64,000 nucleotides of DNA, taken from contig NZ_CP036281.1 in the NCBI RefSeq assembly GCF_007750395.1, positions 347,211 to 411,210 of the forward strand. Reading direction: 5' to 3'. The notes beneath the pieces were generated by a model that had not been told where the DNA came from, did no database searches, and saw only the letters and a list, made by a program, of their open reading frames with translations. Origin of the DNA: Polystyrenella longa (lineage in GTDB: Bacteria > Planctomycetota > Planctomycetia > Planctomycetales > Planctomycetaceae). Positions 49,527 through 64,000 of this stretch are shown in pieces. Position numbers and translations under genes: made by a program. Every line of letters begins with the position of its first letter. The stretch's first letter is position 1.

Positions 49527-52500
49527 TTGATGATCTCCTTCCGCCAGCCTTTCCGTTTTCTCATCGTATTAACTTTGCTGTTCTCTGTCGCCGCTCTAGC
49601 GGGTGGTCAGCTGCACGCACAGGAAGACGAAGATGCGGTCTTCCTTCCCGGTGTACTTGGAAGTTATCAGCAGGAAGGAGCCGAAGTCTTCGAACGGATC
49701 GATTCGGACATCGCGTTCGACTGGGGAACTCAGACTCCCGATGATCGCCTCTCGGCAGATCGTTTCGCCATTGATTGGAACAGCCTGATCCTGATCCGTC
49801 AAAAATCACCGATGCAGTTCCATGCCTATCTTAGGGGTGAAGTCGAAGTGAAAGTCGACGGGATTGTGGTCCTGAATGGGAAATCGAACGAACCAGGCTG
49901 GATCAGTGGCGAGGTACAGGAGCTGCCGCTGGGCGAGCAAGAATTCGAAGTCCACTTCGCTAAAACCTCCGATCAGGCGGTGATCAAACTGTATTGGTCT
50001 TCGGACGCTTTTGCGCTGGAACCAATTCCTGAGAATGCGCTCCTGCGAGAAGAACCAAGCCGGCAACCCTGGTTGGAAGAACAGGGGCACATGGTGGCGG
50101 ATGCCTTTCGCTGTTTTAACTGCCATGCCTCGTCACGTAGTTCATTGAGTTCTCTCGATATGTCCGCTCCTGCCTTGCAACAAGTCCGCGATCATGTCAG
50201 TTGGGAGTGGCTCGTCGCAAAGCTACAGGATCCGACTCATGAGAATATCGCGAGCAAAATGCCGAACTACGGGTTTGACAAGAACGAGGCGGAAGCAGTG
50301 GCCGCTTACCTCTGGTCGAAGTCGAAGCCAACGGAACTCCTTGAACTTCCCGAACTGCCGCAACCGAAGCCGGATAAAAAGAAGGATGCCGCCGAGGAGC
50401 CTGTGACGGTGATCGATCCCATCGCCGAAGGAGAGCGCGTCGCCAATACTGTCGGTTGTCTGGCCTGCCACCAGGTTGGAGAACTGGGGACTGTCGGTCA
50501 TTACAGCGGACCGGAACTAACGCACCTCGGAAGTAAACGGACAGCCGAATGGATTTATACCTGGTTGGAACAACCTGAAAAACTGCATCCGAACCATCGC
50601 ATGCCGGAGGTGCTGCTTTCCAAAACAGAAAAAACACAAGTCGCGCAATACCTCGCCAGCTTGCAACCCGGTGACTCAGAGAACGCAGCCAGCGGTCCAC
50701 CAGAAATGACCGACGCAATGATCGAACGTGGAGAGAAACTGATCGCACAGGCAAGTTGTGTTTCCTGCCATGATCTGGGAAAGAACGACACTTTCAAACC
50801 GTTTGAAGTGGCCGCCATTCAACCCAATCAATTGAATGGAGAAATATCGTGTGTGGGTTCGGAAGGAAAATCGAATCAGGGATCACATAAACCTCACTTC
50901 GGTGAGCGAGCTGATGGGGAAGCGCTCGATGCGTTTTTGTCGATCGCAGAACCGGCTGCAACGGACGACAACGAGGAACTCACAGCCTCTTTCCATCACA
51001 GCGATTACACAGAAGGGGAAAGGCTCCTTCATAAAAAGAACTGTCTCGCCTGTCATCAACGGGGGAACGACAACGGGCTCAAAGATCTCGCTGGCAAGAT
51101 TGCGGCGAATGTACCTGGACAAGAAGGACTGAGCGAAGCCTTTGTCCCTCCTTCGTTAAACGCGATTGGCGATAAGTTGCTTGACGAGGTGTTGGCCAAA
51201 GCAATTGCCGGACAACAGGACCGTGTCCGCCTCGATTGGCTGGCCGTGCGGATGCCGAAGTTTGAACATAGCCAGGAAGAGTCGGCGGCCCTGCTGACCT
51301 ACCTGAAAGGTCACGACCGAATTCCGGCGGCAGCACCGGCAACGACTCCCATTCCCGAAGTTCCGAAAAAGAGTGAAGAAGAATGGTTCCTCACCGGACA
51401 GGCATTAGTTGGAGCCCGAGGTTTCAGTTGCATTGCCTGCCATCAGATCGGCGACTTCCAACCGAAGAAAGTCGAACCGGGAACCCGGGGGACCGACTTG
51501 CAGGGCATTGGCGACCGGATGCGGAAAGAATTCTACTTTCGGTGGGTACAGTCCCCCATCCGAATTATTCGCGGAATGGAAATGCCTTCTTTCAATCGCC
51601 CTAAAGAAGGCGTGCTTGAAGCACATCTGCCTTCGCAATTAGCGGCTGTCTGGGAGGCGTTAAACGATCCACGATTGACTGTCCCTACTGACCCTTCTGT
51701 TGTCGAACAATACTGGGCAGTCGCTCCCGGAGAAAAACCGCGCGTCGTGCGGGATGTCTTCATGGTGCAGGATCAGGATCAACAGATACCGCTCGTTCGT
51801 TCCTTTGCCGCCGGATTCGATAATGGACATAGCTTACTTTACGATCTCTCTCAGCCACAATTACGCGTCTGGACTGTGGGAGATTTCGCACGGCAACGGA
51901 CGGCAGGAAAGAGCTGGTATTGGGATCTGGCCGGAAATCAGCTGGCGCAGTTCAGTTCTGCGCCGGACTTCGCGCTGTCGATCAAAGGAGACATCCAGCT
52001 TCCTTTGATGGTGGACGATTCGGCAACCAGGTTGATCAGTTACCAGACAACAGAAACAGAAGTCGTAATCGAATACCTCACTCATTTCCAGGTAGAAGGT
52101 AAAACGGTCGAAGTCCGTGTTCGGGAACAATTGGAGACGGCATCGACCAAGGCCAATTCAAATGATTCCAAAACAGGATTGAAACGGACATTCACTGTGT
52201 CCCAAATACCTCAAGGAGGCCGCTTGTTAGTCAGCATTCCCAAGATCGCTCCCGGGTTGGGAAATCCTCAGGTCGAACTGATCTCGAATGTTCCTCAGGA
52301 AGCGATCTCGCACGGCAAGCTACCCACCGATAAAGATACAACCGAGTCTCGTACGTGGGTTCGACTTAACTCCTCAGCCGAGGAAGTTACCGGTAGCTTG
52401 CTTTATCAATGTGATCTGAAGGCACCCGCACTGGTGGCCAACCTGGAACAGAATACCGCCGTGCAACCCACACCGATTTCCACCTTGCCCGGATTTACGG

Positions 52501-53819
52501 GGCAACGATTATCGCTTCCCCCCTCATTGATGCCGACGGCGATGACGGTTACCGCTTCGGGCGATCTGGCGTTTACGTCTCTCAAAGGAGATGTCTATCT
52601 GGCTCGCGATACCGATGGTGACGGGTTCGAAGATAAGGTGATCCTCGTCGAAGAAGGGCTGGCCGCCCCTTTCGGGATCTATGCAGACGGAGACCAACTT
52701 CTCGTTTCGCACAAACCGGAAGTCCTTCGCCTGGTGGATACTAACGGCGATGGCCGTGCCGATACTCGTGAAGTTGTCGCGACTGGTTGGGGATACTCGG
52801 AAGATTACCACGACTGGACCTGTGGTATCGTGAAAGACTCCAAAGGGTATTATTACATCGGTATTGGTTCAGACTATGCCCAGAAAAAGCGTTTGGACAA
52901 CACCCGCAAGTGGCGCGGGGCGGTGCTGCGTTTTGATGAGTCAGGGAATGTCGAACCGGTCGGAACGAACTTCCGTTATCCCACCGGCCTGGCGATAGAT
53001 GCCCAGGATCGGGTTTATGTTTCCGATCAACAAGGTGTGCAGAATACCTTTAATGAAATCAACTACCTGCAACCGGGCAAGTCTTATGGCGTACTCAGCT
53101 GGCAGGACCGTGATAAGGATCTGGTGGATACCCGTGCCGCAGTTCAACTTCCGCATCCCTGGACGCGTTCCGTGAATGGACTGTTCATCCTTCCGGAAGA
53201 CTACCCGATTCCGGAATTGGCGGGCGAGGGGATTGGTTGCGAGTACAACGGGCGTTTTCTGATTCGATTTAATATCGACGAAATCAACGGAGAGGTTCAG
53301 GGGGGGGCCTATAACTTCAGTCAACCTGATCAACTCAGTTCTCAGGAGAATTTTCTGGGACCGCTCTCAGGCTGCGTCGGTCCTGATGGAACCATCTACA
53401 TCGGCAGTATGTATGACAGCGGATGGTCGGGTGGAAGTAACACGGGCGAGATCGTGAAATTAAAACCGACCGGTTCCATCCCGAACGGGATCAAGCAGAT
53501 TCGTTCCCGGAAGAATCAATTTGAAATTGAATTTATGCGTCCTGTTGATAAATCGCTCGCCGCGGATCCGGAGCAGTACGGCATCTCAACTTATACTCGC
53601 GTCTGGCAGGGAGCCTATGGCACGCCCGATTCAGGGCGGCACCAGGTGGAGATCGAAAAGGTAACCGTCGCGGACGATGGCAAGTCGGTCATCTTGCATG
53701 TTCCGGAACTGCTTGCCTCGTATGTTTATGAGATCAATTGTGGTGACCTGGATACGAGCAACGAAGAACCCTTCTGGCCCTCGACGGGTAACTACACGGT
53801 GAACACGCTGCCCGAATAA
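49527..53819 (+). CDS. Giant secreted PA14 + five-heme cytochrome c + beta-propeller protein
   Basis: The 1430-residue protein has a signal peptide (about 1-31), then a PA14-like domain (about 35-180), five CxxCH c-type heme motifs (about residues 196, 311, 411, 506, 635; e.g. CFNCH, CLACH, CVSCH, CLACH, CIACH), a middle beta region and a C-terminal propeller-like half with DTDGDGFEDKVILVEEG and GFGIYADGDQLLVS-like repeats. The last ~130 residues look like an Ig-like fold. This is the planctomycete membrane-bound-dehydrogenase/PSCyt architecture, in which heme domains may pass electrons from substrate oxidation at the propeller; the substrate is unknown, though PA14 suggests a sugar. The gene appears to be alone on its strand up to the secretin. 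Confidence 0.85.
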   Translation: MMISFRQPFRFLIVLTLLFSVAALAGGQLHAQEDEDAVFLPGVLGSYQQEGAEVFERIDSDIAFDWGTQTPDDRLSADRFAIDWNSLILIRQKSPMQFHAYLRGEVEVKVDGIVVLNGKSNEPGWISGEVQELPLGEQEFEVHFAKTSDQAVIKLYWSSDAFALEPIPENALLREEPSRQPWLEEQGHMVADAFRCFNCHASSRSSLSSLDMSAPALQQVRDHVSWEWLVAKLQDPTHENIASKMPNYGFDKNEAEAVAAYLWSKSKPTELLELPELPQPKPDKKKDAAEEPVTVIDPIAEGERVANTVGCLACHQVGELGTVGHYSGPELTHLGSKRTAEWIYTWLEQPEKLHPNHRMPEVLLSKTEKTQVAQYLASLQPGDSENAASGPPEMTDAMIERGEKLIAQASCVSCHDLGKNDTFKPFEVAAIQPNQLNGEISCVGSEGKSNQGSHKPHFGERADGEALDAFLSIAEPAATDDNEELTASFHHSDYTEGERLLHKKNCLACHQRGNDNGLKDLAGKIAANVPGQEGLSEAFVPPSLNAIGDKLLDEVLAKAIAGQQDRVRLDWLAVRMPKFEHSQEESAALLTYLKGHDRIPAAAPATTPIPEVPKKSEEEWFLTGQALVGARGFSCIACHQIGDFQPKKVEPGTRGTDLQGIGDRMRKEFYFRWVQSPIRIIRGMEMPSFNRPKEGVLEAHLPSQLAAVWEALNDPRLTVPTDPSVVEQYWAVAPGEKPRVVRDVFMVQDQDQQIPLVRSFAAGFDNGHSLLYDLSQPQLRVWTVGDFARQRTAGKSWYWDLAGNQLAQFSSAPDFALSIKGDIQLPLMVDDSATRLISYQTTETEVVIEYLTHFQVEGKTVEVRVREQLETASTKANSNDSKTGLKRTFTVSQIPQGGRLLVSIPKIAPGLGNPQVELISNVPQEAISHGKLPTDKDTTESRTWVRLNSSAEEVTGSLLYQCDLKAPALVANLEQNTAVQPTPISTLPGFTGQRLSLPPSLMPTAMTVTASGDLAFTSLKGDVYLARDTDGDGFEDKVILVEEGLAAPFGIYADGDQLLVSHKPEVLRLVDTNGDGRADTREVVATGWGYSEDYHDWTCGIVKDSKGYYYIGIGSDYAQKKRLDNTRKWRGAVLRFDESGNVEPVGTNFRYPTGLAIDAQDRVYVSDQQGVQNTFNEINYLQPGKSYGVLSWQDRDKDLVDTRAAVQLPHPWTRSVNGLFILPEDYPIPELAGEGIGCEYNGRFLIRFNIDEINGEVQGGAYNFSQPDQLSSQENFLGPLSGCVGPDGTIYIGSMYDSGWSGGSNTGEIVKLKPTGSIPNGIKQIRSRKNQFEIEFMRPVDKSLAADPEQYGISTYTRVWQGAYGTPDSGRHQVEIEKVTVADDGKSVILHVPELLASYVYEINCGDLDTSNEEPFWPSTGNYTVNTLPE

Positions 53820-54188
53820 CGTGTAGTTCTTACAATAACGGGGTACAGATTTGCGCGGGTCATTTCTTTTTTGAGTGTAAGAAACGATTAAGATTTGATT
53901 TAACAATATATTGCTCTTGATGCATATTTTGTGTTTCCGTACTATCCCGCTCTCTCTCTCATCAGGCCCGCCCTGAAAAGCTTGCGTAACCGCGTAAAAT
54001 CAGACTGATTTTCTTCAACACAGGGATGTGTCGGAGTCCGTTGCGCAGTCTTCATTTCCTATTGATATTTGAATGCTTTTACGATCCACTTTTGTTCGTG
54101 AAAGAACTTCTGGAACGCCTTTGTGCGCTCCGTTTCAAGTAGGGAATGGAGGATTTGCTTTTCTATTGTCGTAACCGATTATACAAGG
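53820..54188. other. Intergenic region, 369 bp
   Basis: No gene is supported. TTCTTACA (53827-53834) and TGTAAGAA (53876-53883) are perfect inverted 8-mers around a 41-nt loop, just after the preceding stop. The rest is the secretin leader; no clear promoter. Confidence 0.35.
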
Positions 54189-57100
54189 ATGAAATCTGTG
54201 CGAGCCCTTTGCATGCTGCTGGTGTTCGGGTCCCTCTGTGGTGGAGGATCTTTCCTGCAAGCACAAAACGGACAGACCGTCGATACCGATACGAAAAACG
54301 AATCGAATGCTACGAAGTTTGAGGTCTATCAACTTCAGCATCAATCTCCGACCTATGTTAAAACACTGTTGCAAGGCTTCCTGAAAGATCAGGCGGACCG
54401 GGTCGAAACCGGTGCGATTGAAGAGCAACAGCTTCTCATCGTGAGAGGTCCGGAGGAAGTTCATCAACTTGTCGCCGACCTCATTAAGAAGGTCGATAAG
54501 AAAACGACAGCGGCCCCCGGTAAGAAACCGGCGGAGTTGAACCCGGCTCTCAATTCGGCCCCTCTGGCGGAACAGTCTATGGAGACGATTCGCTGCCGTC
54601 CGGATTCATTGCTTGCGGCTCAACAGATCGCCCGTAAATTTCTCGAGACGGAACCTGGTTCCAAAGTCACGATTGAACCCCAGAATAGCCTGCTGCTTGT
54701 ACTTGCGAGTCCAAGAAAGTATCAGGAACTCAACCAGAAACTGACAGCCGCTCGACTGCTGGTCGAAAAGACGGCATTAGTCAATGTTCCCGGTGCATCG
54801 CGCAACAATCGCGCAGAAGCGGGTCGCAATATCGAAGACATGTATTACCCGCGATATCATTCGGCCGATCGTCTCGAACAGAAAATTCAACAGTTACTTG
54901 GTAAACGACTCATCCGCGATCCACAGCGAACTGCCGGACGTTACCAGATTCAAAGCCGTGATGGTGCCCGACTGACTTTGGAATTCCAGTCCGAACAGAA
55001 CCGCCTGTTTATGACAGGGCGTGAAGGACTTGTAGATCAGTTCGCGGAACTCGTTCATTCACTCGATTCCTCCACAGAAGTGGGGGCGGCCAAAGTGAGT
55101 ATCGTCCCCGTGCGGAACTCCAAGCCAGAAACCGTTCGTAAAGCGATCAAAGCTTACATGAGTGGTTACCGTGCCGAGCAGGGTGCAGAAGCCAAACCCG
55201 CAGTTCCCGAAGGCGAGCCACAAAGCATGGTGGCTCCGCAGAAGGAGGGTATTCAACAGATCAATTTTCAGAATGGCCTTAACCCGAACAATCTTTCCTT
55301 CCAGATTGAGGGGAACCCCAACGATCTGGATATGGATCTTGATGACGAAGCCCGCCTGCGATCCCGCCTGGGGGAACTCAGTAACAATGTGCAAATTCAA
55401 ACATTGGACGACCTCGATCTGATTATCCTGCGTGGTCGTGATGAAGATGTTCAGGAAATCAGCCGCATTATCGAACAGATCGAACAACTCTCCATCGATG
55501 CCGAACCTGAAATCGAAGTGATTCCATTGAAGCATGTCTCCGGCCGGTCGCTGGAAGCATTGGCGAATCAGATTTCAGAACAATTGGTCGGTGGTCGCCA
55601 GGGTCGCGCCTTTGTAACGGCACTCGGCAATCCGAACTCGATTCTTCTTATTGGTTGGGGGGAAGCGTTCGGGGCAATGAAAGAACTGGTCGAACGTCTC
55701 GACGAACCGGTCGATCCCGAATCTGAAATGCAACTGTTCGCACTCGAACATGCCGATGCCACTGCGGCGATGCAGTCGGTATTGCAATTCTTCACGCCTC
55801 AAGGGGGCCTGTCTCCCACCGTGAATGTGATCACCGACAATCGGACCAACTCGTTGATTGTTCGTGGAGCACCACGTGACTTACTCCAAGTTTCCGCACT
55901 CATCAAACGACTCGATCTCCCCGGTGGAGAAGCAGTGAACCAGGTTCGCACTTATAAGCTGAAAAACACTCTGGCGAACGATCTGGCAGCCGTGATTCAA
56001 GAAGCGATCAATGCTGCCCGTGGACAAGGTGCCGGTGGAAAATCGAAAGTTCTTGAACTGTTGACCGTCGATGCCGAAGGAGAAAAACTGTTAAAAACAG
56101 GAGCTCTCCAGGATGTTCGCATCACGCCCGATCCACGGACAAATACATTGATTATCTCGGCGCCGGAAGATAGCCTCGCGCTATTGGACGCCTTGATTGA
56201 TCAACTCGACCGCGAACCTACCGAACAGGCTCAGATTAAAGTCTTTCGAATTGTTAATGGCGATGCCGCGTCTTTGATTCAAATGTTGCGAGCATTGATT
56301 CCCAGTTCAACCGGACTGGCCTTGGGTCCTCAGTTGCCGGGTTCCGGTGGTGAGACATCACTCATTCCTTTGCGATTTTCTATCGACGAACGGACCAACA
56401 GCATTATTGCTTCCGGTTCGACCAACGATTTAGCGTTGATCGAAGCCCTGTTGATTCGTCTCGATGCGAAAGATGTGCTCGAACGGAAAACGACCGTTTA
56501 CAAACTAAGAAATGCTCCGGCTTTCGATGTTTATGAAGCGATTAACGAGTTTCTGCGAGATGAACGCCGAGTACGCGAAGCGGCCACCGAGGCTACAAAC
56601 CGATTCCTTCAGGTTGAACGAGAAGTCGTCGTTGTCTCTGAGGAGGTGAGCAACAGCATCATCCTCTCAGCGACTCCGGAATACTACGACCGCATTCTCG
56701 GCTTGATCAAAGAACTGGACGAACAACCTCCGATGGTGATGATTCAGGTATTAATTGCCGAACTTGCCTTGAACGATACCGATGAATTCGGTGTCGAACT
56801 CGGATTGCAGGACAGCTTGCTCTTCGACCGTTCGTTGCTGGGTGACTTGTTAACGACGACTAATACGACGCAAGTGACCAATGCCAACGGTGTAACGACG
56901 ATCACAGAAGAGATTATTCAAGGGGCGACAAACCAGCCCGGCTTCGACTTCAACAACAACCCGCTGGGGAATAGTGGAAGTACGAAATCACTTTCGACGG
57001 CAGGTGATGTGGCGGGCCAAGCGATTTCCCACTTCGACGTCGGTCGTGTGAACAGTCAACTTGGTTTTGGTGGTCTGGTTCTTTCGGCCGGTAGCGAGAA

Positions 57101-58010
57101 CATCAACATTCTCGTCCGAGCTCTTAAAGAATCTCGCCGACTGGATGTACTCAGTCGTCCGCAAATCATGACCCTCGATAACCAACCCGCCTTTATTCAA
57201 GTCGGGGAACGAGTTCCCCGAGTGGTAAATACGACATTGAATCAGTTCGGTCAGGTGAACACTGTCGAACTGGAGAATGTGGGACTCATTGTAGCGGTGA
57301 CACCTCGTATCAGCCCTGAGGGGAACGTGGTGATGGAAATCGACGCTGAGAAATCAGAACTAGGTTCCGAAGCGGAAGGGATCCCGATTTCGACTTCGGC
57401 CGATGGAGAAGTCCTGCGGTCTCCCCGTATTAATCTGACAACCGCGTCCACCACGGTCAGTGCCGACAATGGTGAAACGATTATCCTCGGGGGATTGATT
57501 ACCAAATCAACTTCCAAAGTTGCCCGTCGCGTTCCTTACCTGGCCGATATTCCCATCCTGGGTGATCTCTTCCGGTTTGATTCGCGTGCGGTACGGCGAA
57601 CAGAGCTGATGATTATTCTGACGCCCTACATCATCAATAACCCACAAGACATGGAACGGCTTAAACAGATTGAAGAAGCTCGCATGCACTGGTGTGCAGC
57701 GGATATCTCGGCCATTCATTATGACACAGGTTATTGTCTTGATGGTAGTTGTGATCTGGAAACCGAATTGCAGGTCATCTTTCCAGATGACGATCCCCGC
57801 GGCGTGATGCCTCCACCGGAAACGCTGAACATGCAGCCAACTCCGATTCCCGGATCGATTGCTCCGCCGGATTCCATTCAACCAATGATGATGCAGGAAG
57901 ATCAAGTCTTCCGTCAGCAGGTCTCTTTGCCGAACGAGATCCAACCGGTGGTCTCGAAGAAACAGCCTGCCTGGTGGCAACGGAAATCCTCCGCCAGCAA
58001 GACGAAGTAA
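54189..58010 (+). CDS. Secretin (GspD/PilQ-type outer-membrane pore)
   Basis: The 1273-residue protein starts at ATG 54189 (MKSVRALCMLLVFGS, signal peptide to about residue 25); GTG 54123 would add 22 residues. Many N1-like repeats (LKHVSGRSLEALANQI, LEHADATAAMQSVLQFF, LKNTLANDLAAVIQEAI) form the periplasmic part. The secretin core at the end has DVLSRPQIMTLDNQPAFIQVG, VGLIVAVTPRI, ILGGLITKSTSKVARRVPYL and LGDLFRFDS. It is about twice the usual GspD length because of extra N1 repeats and a long Asn/Thr-rich region. In T2SS it would form the exit pore; no other gsp genes are here, so a planctomycete outer-membrane pore with another partner is possible. The lipoprotein gene follows at 58138. 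Confidence 0.9.
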   Translation: MKSVRALCMLLVFGSLCGGGSFLQAQNGQTVDTDTKNESNATKFEVYQLQHQSPTYVKTLLQGFLKDQADRVETGAIEEQQLLIVRGPEEVHQLVADLIKKVDKKTTAAPGKKPAELNPALNSAPLAEQSMETIRCRPDSLLAAQQIARKFLETEPGSKVTIEPQNSLLLVLASPRKYQELNQKLTAARLLVEKTALVNVPGASRNNRAEAGRNIEDMYYPRYHSADRLEQKIQQLLGKRLIRDPQRTAGRYQIQSRDGARLTLEFQSEQNRLFMTGREGLVDQFAELVHSLDSSTEVGAAKVSIVPVRNSKPETVRKAIKAYMSGYRAEQGAEAKPAVPEGEPQSMVAPQKEGIQQINFQNGLNPNNLSFQIEGNPNDLDMDLDDEARLRSRLGELSNNVQIQTLDDLDLIILRGRDEDVQEISRIIEQIEQLSIDAEPEIEVIPLKHVSGRSLEALANQISEQLVGGRQGRAFVTALGNPNSILLIGWGEAFGAMKELVERLDEPVDPESEMQLFALEHADATAAMQSVLQFFTPQGGLSPTVNVITDNRTNSLIVRGAPRDLLQVSALIKRLDLPGGEAVNQVRTYKLKNTLANDLAAVIQEAINAARGQGAGGKSKVLELLTVDAEGEKLLKTGALQDVRITPDPRTNTLIISAPEDSLALLDALIDQLDREPTEQAQIKVFRIVNGDAASLIQMLRALIPSSTGLALGPQLPGSGGETSLIPLRFSIDERTNSIIASGSTNDLALIEALLIRLDAKDVLERKTTVYKLRNAPAFDVYEAINEFLRDERRVREAATEATNRFLQVEREVVVVSEEVSNSIILSATPEYYDRILGLIKELDEQPPMVMIQVLIAELALNDTDEFGVELGLQDSLLFDRSLLGDLLTTTNTTQVTNANGVTTITEEIIQGATNQPGFDFNNNPLGNSGSTKSLSTAGDVAGQAISHFDVGRVNSQLGFGGLVLSAGSENINILVRALKESRRLDVLSRPQIMTLDNQPAFIQVGERVPRVVNTTLNQFGQVNTVELENVGLIVAVTPRISPEGNVVMEIDAEKSELGSEAEGIPISTSADGEVLRSPRINLTTASTTVSADNGETIILGGLITKSTSKVARRVPYLADIPILGDLFRFDSRAVRRTELMIILTPYIINNPQDMERLKQIEEARMHWCAADISAIHYDTGYCLDGSCDLETELQVIFPDDDPRGVMPPPETLNMQPTPIPGSIAPPDSIQPMMMQEDQVFRQQVSLPNEIQPVVSKKQPAWWQRKSSASKTK

Positions 58011-58137: not shown

Positions 58138-59448
58138 ATGATGCGACGCCGCTGGCAAGCGATCACGACGCTCCTCCTGATGACCATGATCCCCGCACTG
58201 TCTTTAACTGGGTGTGCGTCATTTCAACTGGCTCAGGCGATGAAATTCGATTTGAATAAACCCTTCCCGTGGGAAACTGATGACGATGAGATCCGTTCTC
58301 CGGAGCGCCTGGTGGCGGTCTGGAAAGATACGATCATGAATCAGCGGAGCCAGAAGGGGGTCCGTGGTTTTGGCGGACGGGTGATGTTCTACGACTCACA
58401 GGGCGCCAAGCCGATTCGCGTTGCTGGTGATGTCGTTATTTATGCGTTTGATAACACGGGTGTCGACGCCGATGCCATTCCTGACCGTAAATTTGTTTTT
58501 AAAGCAGACCGTCTGGAAGAGCATTACAGCAAATCGGCTTTGGGGCACTCTTACAGCTTCTGGCTTCCCTGGGAAGAAATAGGTGGCGAACCTCGGAAAA
58601 TCAGCCTGCTGGTCCGCTTCGAAGGAGAAGCGGGAGAGACAGTCATGTCCGATCCGGCAATGCAATCTCTTCCCGGAATCCCCAAGGGGTTTATGCTCGG
58701 AAAAAAACAGGACGAAGAGAAAGCGGCCGCTGCTGGCGGCATTCAACAAGCTTCGTATGAAGAAACCGAATCTGCTTTAAAAAAGCAAAATGCGGAACCC
58801 CTGCGGATGCAGACGGAAACGATCGAAGTACCCAAGCGATTCATAGATAAACATCTAACCGATCCTCAGGCGGAATGGGATATCCCTGTTGATAATAGTG
58901 GCGAAAGCAGTTTATATTTCCCTCAGCCGGGGGCGAAGTCGACTAGTTCGCGGGCGCCACAGGAACTGGACCGTTTCGAGGCAGGAGAACTCCCTGCGCA
59001 AGTAGATCAGAAAATGCCTGTAGAACGAACCAGTCAGTATCGGCCTGAACCACAACTTAATGCGCAGGACTTGGAGATTCAGGAGTTGCGGGCGTCGCTG
59101 GATGTAATGCGTCAACAGTTGGCAAAAACGGAACAGCGACAACAGAGCCAAACGACGAACTCAGCTTACAAAGGCTGGGATCGAAAATCGGAACGACAGA
59201 TTCCGCTTAATTCGGGATCGGGACGATCGGCTGAGGTGCAAGGGACACTTCGAGCTCGTTATGAACAGTATTTACGCCAGGCTCAAACATCAGAAGTCGG
59301 GAACACAACTGTCGCTGTCGGTCATCCTGCACCTGACCGCGAAGCGTCACCTGCCCGTCTGCAAACGATACCTCGATCCCGGGAGCAACAGACTGAATGG
59401 GACTGGCAGACGCCAGAGTCTGTTTCAGGTTCCCCGCCTTCAAAATAG
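58138..59448 (+). CDS. Lipoprotein, unknown, with Gln-rich C-terminus
   Basis: The 436-residue product has a signal peptide with lipobox (SLTGC, Cys near 26), so it is probably lipid-anchored. A conserved-looking beta-rich domain (about 40-190: MVAVWKDTIMNQ-like, GRVMFYDSQGAKPIRVAGDV, VIYAFDNTGVDADAIPDR, SYSFWLPWEEIGGEPRKISL) is followed by a low-complexity region rich in Gln, Glu, Arg and Ser with a coiled-coil stretch (about 310-345). It lies 128 bp after the secretin on the same strand and may act as its pilotin-like or assembly lipoprotein (inference from position). Its last 242 nt are antisense to the BON gene. Confidence 0.75.
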   Translation: MMRRRWQAITTLLLMTMIPALSLTGCASFQLAQAMKFDLNKPFPWETDDDEIRSPERLVAVWKDTIMNQRSQKGVRGFGGRVMFYDSQGAKPIRVAGDVVIYAFDNTGVDADAIPDRKFVFKADRLEEHYSKSALGHSYSFWLPWEEIGGEPRKISLLVRFEGEAGETVMSDPAMQSLPGIPKGFMLGKKQDEEKAAAAGGIQQASYEETESALKKQNAEPLRMQTETIEVPKRFIDKHLTDPQAEWDIPVDNSGESSLYFPQPGAKSTSSRAPQELDRFEAGELPAQVDQKMPVERTSQYRPEPQLNAQDLEIQELRASLDVMRQQLAKTEQRQQSQTTNSAYKGWDRKSERQIPLNSGSGRSAEVQGTLRARYEQYLRQAQTSEVGNTTVAVGHPAPDREASPARLQTIPRSREQQTEWDWQTPESVSGSPPSK

Positions 59449-59863
59449 GATCTGCCTTCGGCACAGAGAATCCTAAGGAGAGACGTGGTAGATACATCTG
59501 ATTGGCCTGGGGACGTCGGAGTGGTCGGTTGATCCGGCCAGCCTGACTTCGTTCAACCTGGAAATCCTGCACGGCCGTTCGAACGTTTCCGTCAGTTGAT
59601 CCCTGTTCCAAACCAACGAACCCCGAGCCTTCCTCAGAATCCGCACCGACGAAACTTCGCTCATCGCGATTCTCGCGCAGGAAACGGGCTCCGCCTGAAA
59701 TGGCACTTCCGCCCGAAGCACTCGATGATGCTGCGCCCGGTTCGGGCTGCTTCGTCAGCGGTTGCCCCAATGTTCGATCGCCGAACAGCTGAGCTTCGAC
59801 CTGAGAAATGAATATGATGGAGCTAACGCTGACCATCACAAAAATAATTGTCCGTAATCGCAT
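59207..59863 (-). CDS. Secreted BON domain protein
   Basis: The 218-residue product has a signal peptide (about 1-25, ending VEA), a Gly/Ser/Ala-rich linker and a C-terminal BON domain (about 147-210: SFADGQVTLRGQVQDDRQRQ, then LCSRLLMFEPGVNTVHNELEV), a phospholipid- or glycan-binding module of periplasmic proteins such as OsmY. The whole BON domain lies in the region antisense to the lipoprotein gene 58138-59448. The family pattern makes this strand convincing. It probably acts at the outer membrane. Confidence 0.75.
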   Translation of the reverse strand: MRLRTIIFVMVSVSSIIFISQVEAQLFGDRTLGQPLTKQPEPGAASSSASGGSAISGGARFLRENRDERSFVGADSEEGSGFVGLEQGSTDGNVRTAVQDFQVERSQAGRINRPLRRPQANQMYLPRLSLGFSVPKADPILKAGNLKQTLASASPIQSVAPGIEVSFADGQVTLRGQVQDDRQRQLCSRLLMFEPGVNTVHNELEVSLAPQPIVPIPN

Positions 59864-60520: not shown

Positions 60521-61012
60521 TCAGATCAGAACGGGTTTGCCCTGTTGACGACGAACGATCACCCATTGACCGGCGTGCATTGTCCAGTGGGTGCCTTGCA
60601 TCGCAAAGATCGACCCCACGGTTTCGCCAATCTGCTGCAATTGCTCCGGACCCGGTTTCATCAAGTCTTCATCAGACATCTTGGCGAGGACGGCGAGCGT
60701 GCCTTCGCGTTGTTCATTCATCAGCTTCACCAGTTCTTCTTTAGGAAGAAAGGCTGACGTGTCGTCTCCACTGGAATTCTTGCGGTCATAAATCTCGGTG
60801 AAGCCTTCGGGTAACGCGGGCATGGACCCCGGAGCAATCGCTTCGATCAGTTGATGTTCCGAAGCAATCAAATGCCCCACCTGCCAGTTAATCGGGTTAA
60901 TCCCCTCAGCCGGTTTCAGCAGCAAATCGTCATCGGACAAATCAGACAGGTAAACATTGACAAGCTGGGTCGGTGTGACGAGAGACTTCTTAATATGTTC
61001 AGCAATACTCAT
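60521..61012 (-). CDS. DinB/YfiT family protein
   Basis: The 163-residue four-helix-bundle protein has the His triad of the DinB/DUF1572 superfamily: GHLIASEHQLIEA near 46-58 and TMHAGQW near 144-150. Members bind a metal and act as thiol-dependent S-transferases, for example with bacillithiol or mycothiol; others have unknown roles. It is downstream of the type III PKS on the same strand (149 bp gap), and could be involved in that pathway, but the gap and family breadth leave this open. Confidence 0.85.
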   Translation of the reverse strand: MSIAEHIKKSLVTPTQLVNVYLSDLSDDDLLLKPAEGINPINWQVGHLIASEHQLIEAIAPGSMPALPEGFTEIYDRKNSSGDDTSAFLPKEELVKLMNEQREGTLAVLAKMSDEDLMKPGPEQLQQIGETVGSIFAMQGTHWTMHAGQWVIVRRQQGKPVLI

Positions 61013-61161
61013 GTCAGGATTTCCTCATGCTGGTGGAAAACAATCACGGGGCAGGACAGCAGTCCTTCAATTTTCCCACTTATACTTTAATGGTTCGAGT
61101 TGCTCAGTGGTACCTGACGGGACTCTCCATGCGAACCGGTCTCTTGATTTAAATTTGTCCT

Positions 61162-62256
61162 TTACAAAATCAACGCGGCCTCAGCCACTAATCCCGGACC
61201 GAAACCAAGGATGACGCAAGGGCGTTTAGCTTCTGCTTGGCGAAGACGTTCAATGATGAAGAGGACGGTGGGCGAAGACATATTGCCGTATTCTTCCAGT
61301 ACACGGCGGGAAGGTTCCATCTGTTGATCGTCGAGGCCAAGGGCTTCGGCCGTGGCCTGCAAGATACGAGGGCCCCCCGGATGAATGGCCCAGGAAGCGA
61401 TCTCTTTCGTCGTCAATTGATGGCGGCCCAGCCAGGCTTCCATCCATTCGGGTAGGTACTGCTGGATCACATTGGGCACTTCGGGGGACAGGCCCATTTC
61501 GAAACCGTTGTTTCCAATTTCCCAGCTCATCATCTCGCGGGAATCGGGCAGCAGCCGGGAACCATTGGCGACGATTGTCCAATCCTCCCCGGTAGGAGTC
61601 TCTCGATGACATCCAACGACTGCGGCGGCTCCATCAGCGAAGAGAGAGTTCGCCACGATCCGCTGTGGATTCCAACCGTAGTGATGATGCACGCTGCATA
61701 ATTCCACGGCGCAAACGAGCACACAAGCTTTCGGGTCGGCGTCGGCATACGCTTTGGCGACTCGCAAACCATTCATGGCACCATGACACCCCATGAAGCC
61801 GACATGCGTCCGGGCTGTCTCTTCGGGCAATCCAAGTTCGCGAATCAATTCTATATCAAACCCCGGTGCGGAAAAGCCACTACAGGAAACCGTAACGAGG
61901 TGAGTGATCTCCCCCGGAGCCTTCCCCGAATCCAGCAGCGCTTTGTTCGCTGCTTTTATAGCGAGTGGGGCTGCGTGCAGAACATACTGTTCCATTCGCG
62001 CCGCCGTGTCGGGACCGGAATTTCCCGGTTCTTCCCCTGGGGTGTAGAACGATTGACGATTTTCCGCTCCGTCTTCGGACGAGTTTAACAGCACGCTATA
62101 CCGTTGCTGAACTCCTGATCGACGATAGAGCGCGACGATTTGCCTCTGTTTTTTTTCGTCGACTCGACCCAGATGTTTGGCAATCTCCGCCGCGTCTTTT
62201 TGTTGAACCGCGTGTTCGGGATTAGCCGTACCGACCCCCAGTATTTCAAAACTCAT
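61162..62256 (-). CDS. Type III polyketide synthase (chalcone/alkylresorcinol synthase-like)
   Basis: The 364-residue thiolase-fold enzyme has the Cys-His-Asn triad: Cys157 in HVGFMGCHGAMNG, His292 in SWAIHPGGPRIL and Asn325 in EYGNMSSPTVLF; the C-terminal ILGFGPGLVAEAALI is the family GFGPG loop. It iteratively extends an acyl-CoA with malonyl-CoA and cyclises it to an alkylresorcinol, alkylpyrone or phenolic product. It is downstream of a FAD-dependent oxidoreductase (87 bp) and a methyltransferase in transcription order. The srsABC cluster of Streptomyces griseus has the same three functions, which supports a phenolic-lipid product. Chain length and starter cannot be told. Confidence 0.93.
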   Translation of the reverse strand: MSFEILGVGTANPEHAVQQKDAAEIAKHLGRVDEKKQRQIVALYRRSGVQQRYSVLLNSSEDGAENRQSFYTPGEEPGNSGPDTAARMEQYVLHAAPLAIKAANKALLDSGKAPGEITHLVTVSCSGFSAPGFDIELIRELGLPEETARTHVGFMGCHGAMNGLRVAKAYADADPKACVLVCAVELCSVHHHYGWNPQRIVANSLFADGAAAVVGCHRETPTGEDWTIVANGSRLLPDSREMMSWEIGNNGFEMGLSPEVPNVIQQYLPEWMEAWLGRHQLTTKEIASWAIHPGGPRILQATAEALGLDDQQMEPSRRVLEEYGNMSSPTVLFIIERLRQAEAKRPCVILGFGPGLVAEAALIL

Positions 62257-62343
62257 TTAATGCTCTATTTGGTTAAGGCGATATGCCAGTATAAAAAGAT
62301 GTGCCAGTCAACGAAGAGAATTGATCGCTTCCACACTTCGTCC

Positions 62344-63537
62344 TCAGGACGGAGCATCGACCAGCACAGGAGCGAGGGGTTCGTTTAAGTGTTTGATGAT
62401 GGGACGGGTCAGGCCGGGAAACCAGTTAATGGTGGAGAGGGCGAGTTCCACGGCGCGGGGATAACGAGAGAGTCGAGCGATCCAGCGACAGTATTGATAC
62501 CGCTGTTGCACTTCAGTTCGGTGCAATCGGCTCCACTCCTCTTCGTCGGCAGTCCCCCATGAATCTATTCTAGACGCTACCAGAGTAGAAGCGAGGTAGC
62601 CACTGCAGAGAGCACTGGCGATTCCTTCTCCCGTGAAAGGTTCCACATACCCAGCGGCATCGCCACATCGCAGCGTACGAGGTAGGGCTTTGACGGTAGT
62701 CGTACGGGTCAGAGCAATTGTCCCAGACCAGTCGACGGAGTCCAGATTATTAATTTCGGGGAGATGAGCCTCTTGAATGATTTGCTGTATCAAACCGGAA
62801 GTCGAGTTCGCCTGTTTCAGCACGGGGGCGTTCAGCGCGGCGGCCAGATTCAGGCTGCCATCCTCCAGCTGAGTCAGACCGACATATCCCGCAGGAGAAA
62901 CCGCCATATGAATACTGCCTGCGTCGTAACCTGTAGGAGGTTCCATCAGGATGCCCCCCAATCCCAGCCGCGATGCCGTAGTTGAAAGGCTCTTATGTTG
63001 AGGATATTTTTTGAGCGACGAATTCGCCAGACCATCGGCAACTAAAACGATGCGAGCGGTTGCGATGACTGTCTTGCGATCTGTCGATTGCAATTCTACC
63101 CGACGTTGATCGCCGAGAGGCGTCAGTTCCTCCAGGCGAGCTGTGACTTCGGAAAGGAACTCAGTTCCCTTGGTGATTGCTTCCGTCACCAGAATTTCAT
63201 CAAAGCGAGTCCGACTGAAAGCGACACCGTGAGGTAGCGGTACAGAGACTTCCCGCCGTGGGCTATTGATTTGCAACTCCTGGATTGGAATCGCGCCCGC
63301 GTCTTTCAGCAGTGGCATCAAACCTGCTTGCTCGACGACACTCAGCGTCCGCTCATTGAGGCAACCTCCACACACTTTGTATCGAGGAAACGACTTCCGG
63401 TCGATCAGCAATGTCTTCAAGCCCGCTTTGCCCAGTTGCAGCGCGGCGAGTGCCCCGGCCGGTCCGGCGCCGATGATCAGCACGTCCCAATTCGTCGACG
63501 CGGCCTCGGAGATATCCAGAGTGTTTTTAATCGTCAC
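62344..63537 (-). CDS. FAD-dependent oxidoreductase (geranylgeranyl reductase/hydroxylase type)
   Basis: The 397-residue flavoprotein has the N-terminal dinucleotide-binding motif VLIIGAGPAGALAALQLGKAG-type loop (IGAGPAGALAAL), a middle GG motif and the C-terminal GDAAGYVEPFTGEGIASAL FAD-binding block (GDAAGYVEPFTGEGI). It resembles geranylgeranyl reductases and aromatic hydroxylases. The start is GTG 63537, overlapping the methyltransferase stop as GTGA, with GGAGGA (63545-63550) 7 nt upstream; a GTG at 63552 would ignore this site. In phenolic-lipid clusters the homologous flavoprotein hydroxylates the ring to a quinol. Confidence 0.9.
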   Translation of the reverse strand: MTIKNTLDISEAASTNWDVLIIGAGPAGALAALQLGKAGLKTLLIDRKSFPRYKVCGGCLNERTLSVVEQAGLMPLLKDAGAIPIQELQINSPRREVSVPLPHGVAFSRTRFDEILVTEAITKGTEFLSEVTARLEELTPLGDQRRVELQSTDRKTVIATARIVLVADGLANSSLKKYPQHKSLSTTASRLGLGGILMEPPTGYDAGSIHMAVSPAGYVGLTQLEDGSLNLAAALNAPVLKQANSTSGLIQQIIQEAHLPEINNLDSVDWSGTIALTRTTTVKALPRTLRCGDAAGYVEPFTGEGIASALCSGYLASTLVASRIDSWGTADEEEWSRLHRTEVQQRYQYCRWIARLSRYPRAVELALSTINWFPGLTRPIIKHLNEPLAPVLVDAPS

Positions 63538-64000
63538 GTGCGATTCCTCCACGAGAGCAGGAACCGTTCCGGCCAGTGACGGGTCACGGTAACCGATTCC
63601 ATACCCGCTTTCAGAGCGTGCTCAATCGCTTCCTTGATCGTGAAGGCCGACCGCACGGACAGGGGACCATCCACATGCACAATCGGTGATCGACTGAGTA
63701 ATCGACAGCCAATCTGAGCAAGGCAGTACCCGAAACGGGAACGACGAAGATCGTTCACCAGCACCAACTGCCGGGCCGCATAGGATATCTTGTTCAGGAA
63801 AAAAATCGCCTCTTCGGAACGGAGATGATGCAGGAACAGGGAACACATAATGACGTCGTATTCCCCCGGAACGGGTTCTTTTAGCACATCCCAACGGTGA
63901 AACGGAATCGACAGATCACGTTCGGTCGCCTGACGAGTGGCGTAATCCACGGCAACCGGACTGATGTCGGAGCCGGAGAACTCCATCGGGATTTGTTCCT
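63534..64000 (-). CDS. SAM-dependent methyltransferase, partial (window edge)
   Basis: The right end of the window cuts this gene; the frame stays open to 64000, so the N-terminus and motif I (Gly-rich SAM loop) are missing. The visible part has FSGSDISPVAVDYA (post-I acidic loop) and EYDVIMCSLFLHHL (motif IV/post-II), typical of class I UbiE-like methyltransferases. Its stop overlaps the next gene start as GTGA, so the two are translationally coupled. In phenolic-lipid clusters such an enzyme O-methylates the ring. An ATG at 63986 is internal, not the start. Confidence 0.8.
   Translation of the reverse strand, partial: EQIPMEFSGSDISPVAVDYATRQATERDLSIPFHRWDVLKEPVPGEYDVIMCSLFLHHLRSEEAIFFLNKISYAARQLVLVNDLRRSRFGYCLAQIGCRLLSRSPIVHVDGPLSVRSAFTIKEAIEHALKAGMESVTVTRHWPERFLLSWRNRT

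Follow-up and report, generated by a model that had tools for sequence, protein, structure and literature searches.

A probable ancient dual-coding antisense overlap between a lipoprotein gene and a BON-domain gene at a planctomycete secretin locus

Can one stretch of bacterial DNA encode a complete folded domain on one strand and the end of a second selected protein on the other, and is such an arrangement an accident of one lineage or an old, functional feature? The question is raised by a 64,000-nucleotide stretch (hereafter the window) of the Polystyrenella longa genome (6.1 Mb, a single contig), in which a lipoprotein gene (58138 to 59448, plus strand; 436 aa, stop codon TAG) converges with a gene for a BON-domain protein (59207 to 59863, minus strand; 218 aa). 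The two open reading frames share positions 59207 to 59448, a dual-coding overlap of 242 bp, and a check of the window's reading frames returned both genes and their overlap exactly as a preliminary description of this DNA had given them. That description also placed a whole BON domain antisense to the 3' end of the lipoprotein gene; Pfam locates the domain (PF04972, E = 3.1e-8; residues 145–206) at 59246 to 59431 on the minus strand, entirely within the overlap, and the plus-strand tail, described as rich in Gln, Arg, and Ser, is rich in Q, R, S, T, and P. In the phase used, lipoprotein codon position 1 lies opposite BON position 1, position 2 opposite BON position 3, and position 3 opposite BON position 2; thus, a change at a BON third position almost always alters the lipoprotein amino acid. 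Comparison among relatives leads us to conclude that this antisense overlap, which joins the genes of two predicted envelope proteins at a secretin locus, is very probably old, functional, and dual-coding.

What kinds of proteins are involved? Upstream of the lipoprotein gene, wherever the available sequence suffices, lies a secretin gene (54123 to 58010, plus strand; 1295 aa), the first gene of a conserved secretin–lipoprotein–BON locus, whose product contains six Secretin_N stretches (PF03958, E = 2.6e-74) and a Secretin domain (PF00263, E = 3.5e-44). The plus-strand protein of the overlapping pair is a predicted bacterial lipoprotein, with a signal peptide, a lipobox (LTGC, residues 23–26), and a conserved Cys26 all present; the GC at residues 25–26 is kept in at least 90% of the family alignment, which also reveals a conserved W62 and the motifs RGxGGR and SYxxWxPW. 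AlphaFold2 confidently predicts a single domain in it, an Ig/FN3-like sandwich at about residues 50–182 (residues 53–182, 58294 to 58683, plus strand; pLDDT ~97). Matches of this domain to solved structures are only of the general kind for that fold (FN3-type domains, Z up to 9.3), and no solved structure resembling the lipoprotein by sequence was found. A predicted coiled-coil helix (residues 309–336, 59062 to 59145, plus strand) precedes the overlap. The overlap-coded tail, for which no Pfam family was found, is predicted to be mostly disordered, except for a short helix at residues 371–384 (LRARYEQYLRQAQT; 59248 to 59289, plus strand; pLDDT ~79).

The minus-strand protein is modeled as an N-terminal signal-like helix, a low-confidence middle, and a C-terminal BON domain. 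It passes the PF04972 gathering cutoff (34.2 bits vs. 27), its residues 139–206 are modeled at confidence mostly above 90, and the model matches BonA as well as OsmY (8rjx) and DolP (7a2d and 6xmv), the latter two in Foldseek at E values of 1e-4 to 2.6e-4. With the cutoff passed and these structural matches, the protein is predicted to carry the BON fold. A compact domain in one frame and a flexible tail in the other may represent a division of labor that eases dual coding, and the gene order suggests that the lipoprotein and the BON protein work with the secretin at the outer membrane. Elsewhere in the window, a 1430-aa protein with several CxxCH heme-binding motifs (49527 to 53819, plus strand) is encoded upstream of the secretin, a position conserved in the genus. 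On the minus strand at 60521 to 63552, genes for a DinB-family protein, a type III polyketide synthase (chalcone/stilbene synthase-like), and an FAD oxidoreductase stand in a row that resembles a small biosynthetic cluster and is kept beside the locus in one relative (G065).

How far does the arrangement extend beyond this genome? Within the window's family, 36 of the 38 relatives that have both genes in convergent order overlap, all in the same phase, and the overlap is present in 10 genera. The lipoprotein alignment, used to scan genome contigs, brought in another 53 distinct convergent pairs, among them records titled Pirellula, Rhodopirellula, Rubripirellula, Planctomicrobium, and Thermoguttaceae; 48 of the 53 overlap, again in the same phase. 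A search for related loci with the single BON protein gave no matches, whereas the lipoprotein alignment did find loci. From a class-wide sample of 297 genomes, 57 loci outside the family were read. Of these, 41, from ten further families and 29 genera, share the overlap and its phase; 5, every one in family f11, converge without overlapping; and 11 have no BON gene nearby. The lipoprotein family had no matches outside the class in a phylum-wide sample of 245 genomes.

Removal of near-identical entries left 115 distinct overlapping loci in at least 11 families of the class. Both frames are conserved and open in these relatives, and a single antisense phase is used throughout, the pattern expected of a dual-coding antisense pair; convergent pairs without overlap have mixed phases (phase 0 in 3 of 11). 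The overlap spans 29 to 398 bp (median 218), with a variable end point. Most of the relatives are metagenome-assembled genomes, and a few frameshifts (e.g., at locus L076) may be artefacts. At two loci (L167 and L175), two BON-family reading frames lie opposite the lipoprotein strand. In several f5-family genera, the lipoprotein is kept but no BON gene is recognizable nearby (L222, L228, L235, L242, L248, L265, L270, and L272–L275).

This distribution bears directly on the history proposed in the preliminary description, in which the lipoprotein gene lost its stop codon and came to read into the BON gene, with overprinting as the alternative. If the stop had been lost recently in this lineage, the tail would be meaningless; the lack of a Pfam family and the mostly disordered prediction would fit such a tail, and annotated convergent overlaps often stem from stop-loss extension (PMC2478687). 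We nevertheless regard a recent event as extremely unlikely: it is refuted by conservation of the overlap over genera and 11 families, and both the open frame and the similarity among tails go well beyond what the BON protein alone would impose. These comparisons rule out a recent stop loss. In relatives, the lipoprotein frame does not end ahead of the BON gene (59207 in the window), the comparison that had been proposed as a check, and recurrence of the arrangement in more than 100 genomes, each assembled separately, excludes an assembly error. Stop loss or overprinting does stand as a plausible origin, placed at the base of a large clade; it fails as a recent accident, given an overlap found throughout that clade (clade A, below) and a constrained tail.

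Is the lipoprotein frame itself under selection? We compared it with BON-preserving shuffles, in which the BON amino acids are held and synonymous codons are drawn from the same genes. In the window genome, the lipoprotein frame stays open this far in 0.6% of shuffles, and across 39 loci (related genomes and, hence, not independent) the first antisense stop appears after a mean of 197 nt, vs. 82 ± 11 in shuffles. In every overlapping pair tested, synonymous BON change was lower inside the overlap than outside it, significantly so in most. Over 20 disjoint genome pairs, counted by alignment rather than with a full phylogenetic model, 216 synonymous BON changes fell inside the overlap where 396 were expected (odds ratio 0.27, P = 8e-48), with weak suppression in three of the 20 (L077/L079, L118/L146, and, less so, L241/L259). 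The tail frame was open in 20 of 20 pairs (joint probability ~10^-12), and lipoprotein-tail identity over 20 disjoint pairs was 0.66, vs. 0.46 expected under BON-only constraint.

Comparisons between genera point the same way. Inside the overlap, similarity in the lipoprotein frame exceeds the shuffles by z = 11.4, while the other two antisense frames reach 7.4 and 2.4; outside it, the z values of the antisense frames are 4.3, 2.7, and 0.3. In codons that differ at one position only, BON position 2, which is the lipoprotein wobble position, is enriched 3.4-fold over position 3 relative to the sequence outside the overlap (P = 5e-12); an underpowered test of changes on lipoprotein-synonymous sites within each nucleotide class gave 69 vs. 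64.8 expected (P = 0.10). Thirty of 115 tails contain the motif LPx[TS]P[RQ], often with a Trp before it, vs. 0.8 (maximum 5) in BON-preserving shuffles; the window's own tail lacks it. The tails carry a lower net charge than the shuffles, and their basic character is therefore by itself no evidence of selection. On this codon-level evidence, each frame is under purifying selection that exceeds the constraint coming from the other. In one genome (G148, locus L076), the lipoprotein gene has a frameshift ahead of the overlap, yet synonymous change in the BON tail is still suppressed; for that reason we read the frameshift as either very recent or an error of sequencing.

Does the constraint follow the overlap, or does it belong to the end of the BON gene? 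Co-directional BON genes from paralogous loci offer one control: their antisense frame holds several stops, and in four pairs the last 75 codons did not differ significantly in synonymous change from the rest. Natural losses offer another. In G071, the lipoprotein stop lies 43 bp before the BON gene and the overlap is lost; compared with its overlapping sister G091, the synonymous rate is 0.40 vs. 0.40 in the two parts of the gene. Two pairs from family f11 with no or little overlap likewise lack suppression (0.49 vs. 0.59 and 0.68 vs. 0.61). The absence of suppression in the co-directional paralogs, G071, and the f11 pairs indicates that the constraint follows the overlap. Read across genomes, the comparison shows conservation of arrangement and phase, constraint on both frames, and relaxation upon overlap loss.

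These controls also weigh on a constraint at the level of DNA or RNA, in which a terminator, promoter, or regulatory RNA in the BON 3' end would fix the nucleotides and leave the lipoprotein frame as a by-product. Synonymous suppression alone does not name its cause, such an element could supply part of the signal, and the other two antisense frames also have some excess similarity. Against it, that excess is greatest in the lipoprotein frame, the constraint is gone in G071 and absent from the co-directional paralogs, and LPxTPR is an amino-acid motif that BON coding does not force. No Rfam family was found in the window region, nor was there a clear excess of promoter- or terminator-like sites there. 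We consider this reading very unlikely.

When did the overlap arise, and how often has it been lost? Many Planctomycetaceae possess a second, paralogous secretin–lipoprotein–BON locus in which the BON gene is co-directional (L081–L085, L276, and L277), and some genomes (G023 and G066) contain both kinds of locus. A tree of the lipoprotein domain places every overlapping locus in clade A (SH-aLRT 100) and the co-directional loci outside it; this quick tree has long branches, and details within clade A are unsure. The overlap is present throughout clade A, and the losses (a gap, or no BON gene) are nested inside it. The preliminary description had looked to relatives that end the lipoprotein earlier, with an unconstrained tail, as evidence against its reading, and the lineages without overlap are instead these nested losses. 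The co-directional arrangement was at first considered ancestral, but the tree and the co-occurrence of both arrangements in G023 and G066 mark the co-directional locus as a paralog; either orientation may have come first. The simplest history is that the overlap arose once at the base of clade A and was lost several times later.

Because the overlap has been lost or shortened several times (G071 and family f11), the tail is not indispensable everywhere. Within family f11, overlaps have repeatedly been shortened or lost while the genes stayed convergent (L253, L255, L258, L266, and L268; L227, L250, L262, and L269), which makes this family a natural experiment on the tail's role. Dual coding could accordingly be real and yet persist by entrapment rather than benefit, the lipoprotein having come to depend on its tail as in a ratchet. 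Overlap length drifts among lineages (29–398 bp) and some lineages escaped, as this reading would predict; escape takes one mutation ahead of the BON stop and has been possible, and still ~90% of convergent pairs retain an overlap. We give entrapment about an even chance; it is a refinement of the dual-coding explanation and does not exclude it.

How might such an overlap have been established? Under the dual-coding explanation, in the ancestor of locus A, one of the two paralogous secretin–lipoprotein–BON loci, the BON gene would have faced the lipoprotein gene tail-to-tail, and the frame of the lipoprotein would have run on into the complement of the BON domain, by overprinting after stop loss. 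The new C-terminal tail would then have become useful, and from that time the degenerate positions of each gene would have been held by the other. One strand would specify a folded BON domain, and the other a tail containing proline and arginine, mostly disordered but for a short helix. Both proteins are presumably translated, the lipoprotein is probably anchored in the outer membrane and would act with the secretin and the BON protein at the envelope, and the tail may have a binding partner, which could be the cell wall, the secretin, or the BON protein.

The overlapping 3' ends of the convergent transcripts may couple the expression of both genes. Mutual antisense control through complementary mRNA ends (excludon-like), besides or instead of a tail function, would suit a convergent order whose long complementarity has been retained for a long time; it would not need a conserved reading frame or an amino-acid motif, and we hold it to be possible but rather unlikely. 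We judge unlikely a more specific version of the dual-coding explanation, in which the tail has the BON protein or the secretin as its partner, the ratio of the products is also set by the tail-to-tail transcripts, and the overlap is kept for this joint function. If it were true, the opposite strands of one stretch of DNA would encode two parts of a planctomycete secretin complex that interact with each other, in an arrangement predating the split of the class's orders.

Whether long bacterial antisense overlaps encode two selected proteins is disputed; the surveyed cases are mostly young or annotation errors, and gene-annotation software leaves such overlaps out. The lipoprotein/BON case offers deep conservation, a built-in negative control in the co-directional paralogs, and natural losses, which together make a codon-level prediction testable on many genomes. 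In practical terms, one gene of the pair is probably shortened or omitted by automatic annotation in many planctomycete genomes. The locus also points to an uncharacterized secretin–lipoprotein–BON module in a phylum whose cell envelope is unusual.

How does the locus compare with known systems? A pilotin is a lipoprotein that binds a secretin and delivers it to the outer membrane. Type II secretion systems and type IV pili have such a pair of secretin and pilotin, and here too a secretin gene is followed by a lipoprotein gene; the lipoprotein described here has an Ig/FN3-like domain, and its likeness to pilotins is one of gene neighborhood only. The BON protein shares its fold with OsmY, DolP (an envelope protein that binds phospholipid; PMC7806268), BonA, and Kbp, but differs from them in having a single C-terminal BON domain, a planctomycete-specific N-terminal region, and a gene tied to a secretin locus.

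As for the overlap, Palleja et al. (2008) attributed nearly all prokaryotic overlaps longer than 60 bp to misannotation; only convergent ones survived as possibly real (54 of 178), mostly conserved in very close species only (PMC2478687). The present overlap is likewise convergent and longer than 60 bp, but unlike those cases it has more than 100 genomes and codon-level tests behind it. Antisense proteins have been reviewed by Ardern et al. as typically young, and the gene finder Prodigal excludes long overlaps (PMC7457138). In Escherichia coli O157:H7, pop (antisense to ompA), asa, ano, and laoB likewise involve two protein frames on opposite strands (PMC7103648, PMC6294744, PMC5960689, and PMC5810103), with an origin by overprinting and exclusion by usual annotation in common with the present pair. 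Those are embedded reading frames with expression evidence and have been called typically young (PMC7457138), whereas the lipoprotein/BON pair, described here from sequence, consists of two conserved genes that overlap by their 3' ends and has been kept over families. Our literature search found no published report of this pair or of planctomycetes with antisense overlapping genes. Dual-coding antisense overlap is a kind of arrangement already known, but protection of both proteins is rare, since overlaps of this sort mostly prove short-lived or to be annotation errors; this one appears unusually old for bacteria, and what is new is the depth of its conservation and the strength of its two-frame signal.
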